DNA from: Anderseniella sp.
GTDB taxonomy: Bacteria; Pseudomonadota; Alphaproteobacteria; Rhizobiales; Aestuariivirgaceae
Assembly: GCA_030626025.1 (NCBI GenBank)
Contig: DAOUPT010000001.1
Span: forward strand, 62,001-126,000
Reading direction: 5' to 3'
DNA: 64,000 bases
In this document: one piece after another, positions 2,822 to 5,682 of the stretch
How positions within the stretch are numbered: the first letter of the stretch is position 1
Layout: every line of letters starts with the position of its first letter
Translations under genes and position numbers: made by a program
The notes under the pieces: model-generated
What the model was told of the DNA's origin: nothing
The model's database searches: none
What the model saw: only the letters and a program-made list of their open reading frames with translations

Positions 2822-2841
2822 ATATTGTAGTACTGTTATAC
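2822..2841 (-). promoter_or_regulatory. Candidate Rrf2/BadM operator before the reductase operon
   Basis: On the minus strand this site reads GTATAACAGTAC followed by TACAATAT, a near-palindrome with GTAT...GTAC...ATAT symmetry. The first 12 bases recur exactly, in the same orientation to the gene, before the aryl-CoA ligase at 4086-4097. The distances from the 12-mer to the ATG are 40 and 43 nt. A -10-like TACAAT follows directly, and there is no good -35 hexamer in front, which suits a regulator bound at or over the promoter. That the neighbouring Rrf2 protein binds here is inferred. Confidence 0.6.
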
Positions 2842-3048
2842 CGATTTTATGCTATGGTACAGAGGAAAGCCAGAAAAAATATACCAATAGATCGTGGCAA
2901 GCTGCTTGAAAAGCAGTGTGTATCATGAGGATTGCCGGTAAACTTGCATGTAGTGGCCTATCTGGTTTACACAAAAACTGACAGGTAGATCAGATTCGCA
3001 TTTAAAACCCGTTCACAGGCAGCGTTTCAAAAGAAAGAATAACCGGGT

Positions 3049-3546
3049 ATGGACAAACAGGCTCATACATCAGGTTCAGATTTGAACCAGCAGATCAGCA
3101 TCAGGCGCGTGGCCAGTGGTGATTTGAGCTTTGTGATGGCACTTGATGAAAGTGTGACGGGATTGGCCAAGCCGGACTATTGGCAAGACATTTTTTCCCG
3201 CTATGCCAAACGCCGGACGCAGGAGCGGTTTTTTCTGGTGGCTGAAAATACTAACCAAGATTTTGCCGCCCCGATCCTCGGGTATATTGTTGGTGAGGTG
3301 CGGGCCTGGGAATTTGGTTCTGAGCCGAGTGGCTGGGTTTTTGCTTTTTCAGTTGATCCTGACATGCGCGAACGCGGGGTTGGTGAGCAATTGTTTGAGG
3401 CGATTTCAGAAAAGTTTCGTGGCGCGGGCGTAAGCTCAATGCGTACAATGGTGGAACGCAAGAACCAGTTGCATATGGCTTTCTTTCGCAGCGAAGGCAT
3501 GGCAGCGGGGCCGTATATTCAACTGGAGAAAAACCTTGATGAATAA
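3049..3546 (+). CDS. GNAT acetyltransferase, BadL-like
   Basis: A 165-aa Gcn5-related N-acetyltransferase. The acetyl-CoA pyrophosphate-binding motif is visible around RERGVGEQL (about residues 105-113) after the beta-4 strand. Known: in Rhodopseudomonas palustris the GNAT BadL acetylates aminobenzoates, and the products relieve repression by the Rrf2 regulator BadM. Here the gene sits 32 nt before an Rrf2 gene and between reductase and aryl-CoA ligase genes, so the same role is inferred. An alternative is acetylation of the catalytic lysine of the neighbouring ligase, as Pat enzymes do. The ribosome site before this ATG is weak. The family call is secure; the substrate is not. Confidence 0.75.
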   Translation: MDKQAHTSGSDLNQQISIRRVASGDLSFVMALDESVTGLAKPDYWQDIFSRYAKRRTQERFFLVAENTNQDFAAPILGYIVGEVRAWEFGSEPSGWVFAFSVDPDMRERGVGEQLFEAISEKFRGAGVSSMRTMVERKNQLHMAFFRSEGMAAGPYIQLEKNLDE

Positions 3547-3578
3547 GTGGCGCGTTGTTTGGGAAGGTCGAGGTTGAT

Positions 3579-4022
3579 ATGAAGCTGCAAAAATCCAGCA
3601 GGCTGGCAATTTTCGCCTTGATTGAACTGGCATCTGATCCAAAGGCGCAAGTTTCAGTGTCCGAAATTGGCGACAAGTACGGTGTGTCTTCGCACCATCT
3701 AGCTAAAGTCATGCACACTCTCGGGCGGGCTGGTCTGGTGCGCTCAATTCGTGGAGTTGGCGGTGGGTATAGTTTCAGTGGTAATGAAAAGCGGACCACA
3801 TTGCTGGATGTGATTATGCTGTTTGAAGATACTTCTACTGGTGATTGTGCGGTGGAAAATCCTGCCGATGTTACGGCAGCGGAATGGGCCTTATGTCAGG
3901 TGGTCAACGAGATTGACGAAATAGCTCAGGCAACGCTTGGAGCGATTACTATTTCAACGATGCTCAAGCAGATTGAGCGCAATAAAAAGACCGCTAAAAG
4001 GGCAAAAGCACTTTCTGCCTGA
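3579..4022 (+). CDS. Rrf2-family transcriptional regulator, BadM-like
   Basis: A 147-aa Rrf2 regulator with an N-terminal winged helix (LQKSSRLAIFALIELA, then a VSSHHLAKVMHTLGRAGLV recognition helix and the GGGY wing). The three closely spaced cysteines that hold the Fe-S cluster in IscR/NsrR are absent: only two Cys, 16 residues apart, lie in the effector region, so a small-molecule ligand is more likely than a cluster. The ATG at 3579 has GAGG five nt upstream and gives a standard Rrf2 N-terminus; an in-frame TTG at 3555 is less likely. BadM of R. palustris is an Rrf2 repressor of benzoate genes next to the GNAT BadL, and the context here is the same. Targets are probably the two sites at 2822-2841 and 4086-4105. 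Confidence 0.8.
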   Translation: MKLQKSSRLAIFALIELASDPKAQVSVSEIGDKYGVSSHHLAKVMHTLGRAGLVRSIRGVGGGYSFSGNEKRTTLLDVIMLFEDTSTGDCAVENPADVTAAEWALCQVVNEIDEIAQATLGAITISTMLKQIERNKKTAKRAKALSA

Positions 4023-4085
4023 AGTTTGTTTTCTGAAATTTGAATTGATCAGAATGAGGCAAGCTTGCATGTTTTAGCAATTGAC

Positions 4086-4105
4086 GTATAACAGTACGAT
4101 AATAC
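4086..4105 (+). promoter_or_regulatory. Candidate Rrf2/BadM operator before the aryl-CoA ligase
   Basis: Reads GTATAACAGTAC then GATAATAC, giving GTAT....GTAC....ATAC dyad symmetry. It shares 12 consecutive bases plus the following AATA with the site before the reductase operon. A -10-like GATAAT overlaps its right half. The ligase ATG begins 35 nt after the site. No third copy was noticed elsewhere in the window. Confidence 0.6.
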
Positions 4106-4140: not shown

Positions 4141-5682
4141 ATGAGTGATGCCGGATGGTATAATGCGGTTTCCGATTTTGTTGACCAGAATGTGGAAAAA
4201 GGCTTCGGGGCCAAGCTTGCCTTTGTTGATCCTGAACGTACTCTTACCTACCAGCAATTACAGACGTCGAGCAAAAAACTGGCCAATGTGTTGAGTGAGC
4301 TAAAAGTAAGGCGCGAGTGCCGAATTGCTATGCTGATGCTTGATACGATAGATTTTCCCGTTGTCTTTTGGGGGGCTCTTCGGGCAGGTGTAGTGCCAGT
4401 TTGCATGAATACGTTGTTAACTGGTGAGCAGTGTAAATATATGCTCAGCGACAGTCGGGCTGAAACTCTTTTTATCGCGGCTTCCCTGTTGGAAATCGTC
4501 GAACCAGTATTGAAGAAACTGGAGTTCCTTAAAGCTATTGTTGTTGTTGGGGGGCAAGGCGGGTTTCATCATTACTTGTCGTTTGAGGATTTACTTGCAG
4601 ATGCAGATGATGATTTCCAAACTGTAAAGACCTGCAAGGACGAGACGGCATTTTGGCTTTATTCATCTGGATCGACCGGTGACCCAAAAGGGGTCCGTCA
4701 CGTTCACACCAGCATGAAGTATGTGGCACATCACTATGGCAAAAACCTGCTGGGAATTGAACATGACGATATATGTTTTGCGGCAGCAAAACTGTTTTTC
4801 GCTTATGGCCTGGGTGCTGGTATGGCGGTATCCTTATCGATTGGCGCAACTACAGTTTTGTTGCCTGATCGCCCGACACCAGAATCGGTTTTACATATGC
4901 TCAAAATATATAACCCGACTCTATTTTTTGGTGTTCCAACATTATATGCTGCAATGCTGGCAGATGAAAATTGCAAGCCGGAAAATGCGTCAAGCAGGTT
5001 GCGAATTTGCATATCAGCCGGTGAGGCCTTGCCAACTGATGTTGGGTTGAGCTGGAAAAAGCGCATGGGTATAGATATCATAGATGGTATCGGGTCGACT
5101 GAAATGTTGCACGTATTCCTTTCCAACCGCCCCGGTGATATTCGCTATGGAACATCAGGCAGAGAGTTTGATGGTTACGAACTGCGCTTGGTGGATGATG
5201 ATGGCTGTGATGTTGGCGTTGATGAAATCGGCGAGTTGCTGGTATCAGGCGGTTCTGCTGCTGATGGTTACTGGAACAAACGGGCCAAATCACGTGCCAC
5301 TTTTGCCGGTATCTGGACCCATACCGGGGACAAATATTATCGCGATAGGGACGGTTATTATCATTATTGTGGCCGCACTGATGACATGTTCAAGGTCTCG
5401 GGCCGCTGGGTTTCACCGTTTGAAGTTGAAGAGGCACTCATTTCACACCCAGCTGTGCTTGAAGCAGCTGTCGTTGCCCAAGAAGATGATGAAGGTTTGA
5501 TCAAGCCCATGGCCTTCGTGGTTTTGAACAAAACAGCACCAAATGACAGCTTGTTCAAAGAACTGAAAGAACATGTAAAGTCATCGGTAGGTGTCTGGAA
5601 ATACCCTCGCTGGATAGAATTTGTACCTGATCTTCCCAAAACGGCCACGGGTAAAATCCAGCGTTACAAACTACGGGCATAA
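4141..5682 (+). CDS. Benzoate / 4-hydroxybenzoate-CoA ligase family
   Basis: AMP-forming aryl-CoA ligase, 513 aa, activating an aromatic acid to its CoA thioester in the cytoplasm with ATP. Seen: the phosphate loop SSGSTGDPKG near residue 178, the motif with GIGSTEMLH, the hinge CGRTDDMFKVSG, and the catalytic lysine in TATGKIQ at residue 505. That lysine is the position acetylated in R. palustris BadA/HbaA. The EVEEALISHP ending and the N-terminal FVDP...TYQQL fit the benzoate-CoA ligase family. The ATG at 4141 follows a GGTGAGG ribosome site; the upstream in-frame TTG at 4081 would place the operator inside the gene and is rejected. It probably supplies the CoA substrate to the divergent reductase. 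Benzoate versus 4-hydroxybenzoate cannot be decided from sequence alone. Confidence 0.85.
   Translation: MSDAGWYNAVSDFVDQNVEKGFGAKLAFVDPERTLTYQQLQTSSKKLANVLSELKVRRECRIAMLMLDTIDFPVVFWGALRAGVVPVCMNTLLTGEQCKYMLSDSRAETLFIAASLLEIVEPVLKKLEFLKAIVVVGGQGGFHHYLSFEDLLADADDDFQTVKTCKDETAFWLYSSGSTGDPKGVRHVHTSMKYVAHHYGKNLLGIEHDDICFAAAKLFFAYGLGAGMAVSLSIGATTVLLPDRPTPESVLHMLKIYNPTLFFGVPTLYAAMLADENCKPENASSRLRICISAGEALPTDVGLSWKKRMGIDIIDGIGSTEMLHVFLSNRPGDIRYGTSGREFDGYELRLVDDDGCDVGVDEIGELLVSGGSAADGYWNKRAKSRATFAGIWTHTGDKYYRDRDGYYHYCGRTDDMFKVSGRWVSPFEVEEALISHPAVLEAAVVAQEDDEGLIKPMAFVVLNKTAPNDSLFKELKEHVKSSVGVWKYPRWIEFVPDLPKTATGKIQRYKLRA

Follow-up and report, generated by a model that had tools for sequence, protein, structure and literature searches.

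Gene content of the locus

The window, by which is meant the whole stretch of 64,000 nucleotides that was analysed, begins within a larger anaerobic benzoyl-CoA cluster, the rest of which lies upstream on the same contig (C30). Its first two genes, both on the minus strand, are hcrA (positions 1 to 2325, with its last codons beyond the window), which encodes the alpha subunit of 4-hydroxybenzoyl-CoA reductase, and hcrC (2322 to 2789), probably for the gamma (iron-sulphur) subunit, and they are joined by hcrB, located after hcrA (C30:61009-61989). Within this equivalog set HcrA scores above its cut-off (TIGR03194, 1226.7 bits, cut-off 994.55), while HcrB (TIGR03195, 394.2, cut-off 404.55) and HcrC (TIGR03193, 241.9 bits, cut-off 257.8) fall slightly below theirs. 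The plus strand carries a GNAT acetyltransferase gene (3049 to 3546; PF00583, 38.5 bits), a gene for a predicted Rrf2 repressor of 147 amino acids counted from the ATG at 3579 (3579 to 4022; TIGR00738, 94.4, cut-off 73.3; PF02082, 87.2 bits), and an aryl-CoA ligase gene of the benzoate-CoA ligase family (4141 to 5682; TIGR02262, 756.9 bits, cut-off 375.25).

The initial annotation regarded the GNAT and Rrf2 genes as a BadL/BadM-like pair, and reciprocal best hits do link the two proteins to BadL and BadM of the Rhodopseudomonas type, the reverse search having been made with proteins of an R. palustris-like genome (G560). The window Rrf2 protein, for which the sequence from 3585 onward was used in searches, is 48% identical to this BadM (128 bits versus 35 for the next match).

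A structure model of the Rrf2 protein (pLDDT 90.5) is matched best by CymR (2y75; Z 16.4, rmsd 1.9, 126 residues aligned), tied with the IscR of T. potens (4cic; Z 16.0), and the Rrf2 fold is common to CymR, IscR, NsrR and the window protein. The GNAT model (pLDDT 85.2) is matched by many acetyltransferases at a tied Z of 17 to 19, and neither model fixes the ligand. IscR and NsrR bind an Fe-S cluster through cysteines. In contrast, the cysteines of the window protein are not conserved in its clade: in an alignment of 87 sequences both of its cysteine columns vary, and in none of the remaining columns is cysteine the most frequent residue. Fe-S sensing of the IscR/NsrR type was therefore rejected. 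The window GNAT carries Ser94 at a position occupied by cysteine in 72 of 78 aligned GNATs, within the motif WEFGSxPCGWVF.

Predicted operators and the wider cluster

The 12-mer GTATAACAGTAC is found at 4086 to 4097 on the plus strand and at 2830 to 2841 on the minus strand, each copy being followed by NNNAATA; the start codon of the ligase gene (4141) is 43 nt away from the first copy, and that of hcrC (2789, minus strand) 40 nt from the second. A sequence check agreed with the initial annotation on these positions, on the orientation and spacing, and on the extension of both copies into 20-bp near-palindromes. Predicted operator 1 (2822 to 2841; GTATAACAGTACTACAATAT on the minus strand) is situated in the divergent gap between hcrC and the GNAT gene, and the equivalent gap of many relatives also contains a site. 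Predicted operator 2 (4086 to 4105; GTATAACAGTACGATAATAC) overlaps the -10-like hexamer GATAAT (4098 to 4103), which a promoter scan flagged, a weak signal given two promoter-like sites in the region versus 1.8 expected. A -10-like overlap had been proposed for both sites; at the hcrC site the scan flagged no such hexamer and the proposal depends on reading by eye.

The degenerate 20-mer GTATNNNNGTACNNNNATAY occurs twice in the 3.7-Mb assembly, in both cases at the window sites. A looser 19-mer with up to 3 mismatches yielded 18 matches in the assembly versus 37 for the reversed-pattern control, and thus loose matches alone mean nothing. Six of these have at most 2 mismatches, including three on C30, and a fourth match on C30 has 3 mismatches. 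The two C30 matches that were new precede other aromatic-cluster genes. On other contigs, two identical 19-mers (TTATAACAATACCAGAATA; G000:C18:47937 and C24:93) differ from the operator pattern by 2 mismatches.

Upstream on C30 the cluster comprises a molybdenum oxidoreductase operon, which we take to be pad-like and which has no family match above cut-off. It further comprises korAB (TIGR03710 for the alpha subunit, 532.1, cut-off 482.75), a second pair of 2-oxoacid oxidoreductase genes, identified by eye, and had (TIGR03201, 364.8, cut-off 338.65, partial protein). The benzoyl-CoA reductase genes are represented by bcrC (TIGR02263, 684.8, cut-off 421.15), bcrB (TIGR02260, 870, cut-off 486.55), and bcrA and bcrD (PF01869). 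Two further genes with general enoyl-CoA hydratase matches are presumably oah and dch, the names being drawn from gene order and recall. The same cluster includes genes for a tandem GNAT, a hemerythrin-like protein and a short-chain dehydrogenase (SDR).

In the assembly of the window, C30 was scanned with matrices and the other contigs by pattern search. A matrix built from four sites, applied to 96 kb, identified a fifth at C30:49163 in the korA-had gap (18.6 bits, with 10.4 for the runner-up position), and with the five-site matrix the remainder of C30 reaches a maximum of 9.0. All five sites (C30:38151, 49163, 58724, 64822 and 66086) fall within gaps of the benzoyl-CoA cluster, at the pad-like operon, kor/had-oah-dch-bcrCBAD, the hemerythrin-tandem GNAT/SDR genes, hcrCAB and the ligase gene. 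Direct control of a 4-hydroxybenzoate-type branch had been proposed from the window alone; the identity of hcrA supports that part, and the proposal was too narrow, since sites also precede the bcr operon, other genes of the cluster and, elsewhere, box operons. The predicted regulon is wider than first proposed, most operons of the organism's pathway for benzoate-like aromatics being preceded by a site, and the system is of a known kind with a readable operator. Control of the organism's own aerobic boxC-boxB genes (G000:C115, L172:8211-11321) by this operator was rejected, as no site was found there (best score 8.5).

The tandem double GNAT (C30:57172-58697; L011:7172-8697) is the second-best BadL match in the genome, at 29 and 24% identity. 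Its gene comes after that of the hemerythrin-like protein, close to an operator of its own, and the two are found together in many relatives; they perhaps serve in protecting the reductase from oxygen.

Conservation among related loci

Relatives were represented by 55 named loci with Rrf2 orthologs (52 to 91% identity in the best segment), the titles of which are alphaproteobacterial for the most part, with a few beta- and gammaproteobacterial entries. A GNAT gene lies immediately upstream of the Rrf2 gene in 54 of the 55; the remaining locus (L085) begins where its contig does. Among 22 genomes of the class with the Rrf2 gene, the same arrangement is seen in all except G226.

An initial set comprised 71 loci, including 16 fetched via bcrC; here 75 positions scored at least 14, whereas 30 permuted matrices gave 1.6 on average and never more than 6. 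In the final set (1.47 Mb), the five-site matrix located 102 sites in 62 of 93 loci, whereas 60 permuted matrices averaged 2.05 and never exceeded 7. Of the 102, 97 lie no more than 350 bp upstream of the start of a recognised pathway gene, and such zones make up 17.5% of positions. A family matrix, which is partly circular because it was trained largely on the same loci, detected 131 sites in 79 of the 93 loci, 122 of them near a start. The genes most often associated with these sites, a divergent-gap site being counted for both genes, are those for GNAT (57), hcrC (20), hemerythrin (18), ligase (14) and had (13). No site of at least 13 bits was found with the family matrix in 14 of the 93 loci (L049, L054, L058, L070, L071, L074, L080, L083, L122, L138, L180, L184, L187 and L188).

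Six of the genomes behind these loci were searched with RTAWNNNNGTACNNNNWTAC, the reversed form of which matches in four of the six. The pattern has four matches in G388, each of them within the aromatic cluster (at the pad-like, had/kor, hemerythrin and ligase genes), and its matches are within the cluster in G385 (2/2), G386 (1/1) and G389 (1/2); there is no match in G387 or G390, whose loci carry only weaker sites. A matching change between recognition-helix residue 39 (His or Asn, full numbering) and operator position 2 (T or C) was looked for, C half-sites making up 24 of 44 with Asn and 32 of 234 with His; several Asn loci keep T, the loci are related and other columns score higher, and this reading was set aside. 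At the level of sequence, the shared site behaves as an operator conserved in this clade of Rrf2 proteins would.

Co-occurrence with benzoyl-CoA pathways

Among 385 genomes of the class, bcrC above cut-off is present in 15, an Rrf2 ortholog in 22 and both in 14, and BoxB above cut-off is found in 81. Sixteen of the 385 contain the strict pattern GTAWTNNNGTACNNNAWTAC, namely 12 of 22 Rrf2-positive versus 4 of 363 Rrf2-negative genomes (p = 6e-14), and it is absent from the other 10 Rrf2-positive genomes; the reversed pattern occurs in seven genomes, none of which is Rrf2-positive. When genomes with a pathway (bcr or box) are considered, the pattern is present in 12 of 20 with Rrf2 versus 1 of 61 without. 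These contingency counts cover all 385 genomes, with sub-cut-off matches to boxB (G312, G327, G353) and bcrC (G094) dropped. The one Rrf2-negative case (G306) has the operator before a had gene and a bcr contig cut within bcrA, and a search of this genome for a close Rrf2 ortholog found none. One locus (L139) has the GNAT-Rrf2 pair and a site (19.5) in a genome (G267) that yielded neither a bcr nor a box gene, and another (L138), from the 70% complete G226, has the Rrf2 gene but no GNAT match, site, bcr or box gene.

Eight Rrf2-positive genomes are bcr-negative, and in six of these boxC-boxB adjoins the GNAT-Rrf2 pair and the gap between the GNAT gene and boxC holds a site (16.1, 17.6, 11.8, 21.4, 20.8 and 23.1 bits, the third being weak). 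The BoxC and BoxB models score above cut-off on the two proteins tested. In G560, in the stretch adjoining the badD region, a site of 15.7 bits stands before a group of dehydrogenase genes that continues into boxC-boxB. Because of the six box loci and this G560 site, the pair could be regarded as sensing the benzoyl-CoA pool in general and acting on bcr and box genes through one operator, a tentative and rather unlikely reading. Here, the acyl donor used by the GNAT for the inducer might be benzoyl-CoA or a different CoA ester of the pathway, with the published acetamidobenzoates as weak mimics; the choice of acyl donor is a guess. With one sensor for bcr and box, the shared signal would be upstream of both pathways.

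Comparison with Rhodopseudomonas BadL and BadM

Three Rhodopseudomonas-like genomes, reached via a Bradyrhizobium locus, have the order badDEFG, ligase and then the GNAT-Rrf2 pair. With a matrix trained without the Rhodopseudomonas-like loci, the best site in each 20-kb stretch around badD is located just before badD in all three genomes (13.9, 15.8 and 14.6 bits, with 1.3, 10.7 and 3.1 at the next-best positions), the first of these, in G560, being weaker than the site before the box-leading group. The badD sites end 74 to 75 bp upstream of the putative badD ATG, beside TTGATCCGCATCAA. They are weak by the window organism's own matrix (10.8 to 13.1). In 2000 trials, resampled sequences scored as high in no more than 0.05% of cases by the family matrix and in 0.05 to 0.2% by the own matrix. 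Upstream of the hba reductase genes, nothing site-like was seen in the one such genome (G560).

In the accessible text of PMC6191541, BadM binds a 212-bp badC-badD probe spanning -191 to +21 of badD, BadL acetylates aminobenzoates and the products free BadM, 10 mM 2-acetamidobenzoate releasing it from this probe. In the literature searched, PMC6191541 alone was found to deal extensively with an Rrf2 regulator of benzoyl-CoA genes. The badD sites fall inside the published span, and Peres and Harwood 2006 or Hirakawa 2015 may already contain a map of the BadM site of R. palustris. The locus thus shares with R. palustris BadL/BadM, as far as that text describes it, an orthologous GNAT-Rrf2 pair, the gene order, a benzoyl-CoA reductase operon as target and an operator-like site within the probe span. 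It differs in having five sites, a wider predicted regulon that includes 4-hydroxybenzoyl-CoA reductase, and bcr genes accompanied by had-oah-dch. In the part of PMC10803450 that was available, BadM is placed near the benzoate-CoA ligase of Alphaproteobacteria and in Alphaproteobacteria only; by contrast, the Rrf2 clade is here also found in loci titled Burkholderiales and Gammaproteobacteria. Further related literature, likewise available in part, includes PMC4344238 and PMC6079105.

Proposed circuit and alternatives

The five sites are very probably operators of the local BadM-type Rrf2 repressor, which would hold the anaerobic benzoyl-CoA regulon off, the GNAT making or relaying the signal. 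Judged by sequence, the link between repressor and operator is strong. The Rrf2 protein would bind, probably as a dimer, a 20-bp palindrome with the consensus GTATTnnnGTACnnnAATAC near promoters, and would repress the pad-like operon, kor, had-oah-dch-bcrCBAD, the hemerythrin-tandem GNAT and SDR genes, hcrCAB, the aryl-CoA ligase gene and, by autoregulation, its own badLM pair. The GNAT, as the BadL ortholog, may make or relay the signal for induction, which the analogy with R. palustris would make an N-acetylated aminobenzoate. On this reading, a repressor known from work on a single species would gain an operator that is readable and probably widely shared, and the regulons of the BadM clade would become predictable from sequence in uncultured aromatic degraders. 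Aerobic and anaerobic benzoyl-CoA metabolism would also be tied to a single repressor that has an acetyltransferase as its partner.

An alternative to the signal step only is that the GNAT modifies the Rrf2 protein or partners it physically, in the style of CysK and CymR, rather than making a diffusible acetamidobenzoate. CysK is a physical partner of CymR. This arrangement, a doubtful one that nevertheless deserves some weight, would fit the near-constant pairing of the two genes and the first rank of CymR among the structural matches of the Rrf2 model, but resemblance to CymR is common to the whole Rrf2 fold. It would also fit the 10 mM ligand required for the published release, a doubtful point of the published model, yet in the same accessible text (PMC6191541) it is the acetylated products of BadL that release BadM; short defined DNA makes this release testable.

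It is quite unlikely that the palindrome is instead the site of another benzoyl-CoA regulator (BadR/MarR, BoxR/BzdR or FNR type) and that the Rrf2 gene merely travels along. Such a regulator would account for G306, which carries the operator although no close Rrf2 ortholog was detected there, but the operator tracks Rrf2 rather than the pathway in the counts above, and all six box loci with the pair have a site in the GNAT-boxC gap, one of only 11.8 bits. BzdR and BoxR of Azoarcus are alike in controlling benzoyl-CoA pathways, the anaerobic (bzd) one and, on the BoxR side, the aerobic (box) one. To our knowledge, they belong to a protein family different from Rrf2 and have no GNAT partner. Both repressors are named in the available part of PMC4424350. 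The BadR site given in the accessible text of PMC9795900, CAATnnATTG, is a different sequence from the palindrome, and a BadR operator was rejected as its identity. An FNR/AadR box beside the sites, as before badD, was likewise rejected, the best FNR-type box having 2 mismatches (before the ligase gene) and the others 3 or 4.

Chance palindromes in AT-rich gaps, for which the strict pattern in three genomes that lack both Rrf2 and pathway genes (G014, G026, G218) might speak, are hardly credible against the permuted-matrix counts of the final locus set.

Three loci (L187, L188 and L189) contain more distant GNAT-Rrf2 pairs, with Rrf2 proteins 41 to 44% identical, beside other molybdenum hydroxylase genes (29 to 30% identity to HcrA), which suggests a broader family of such pairs.
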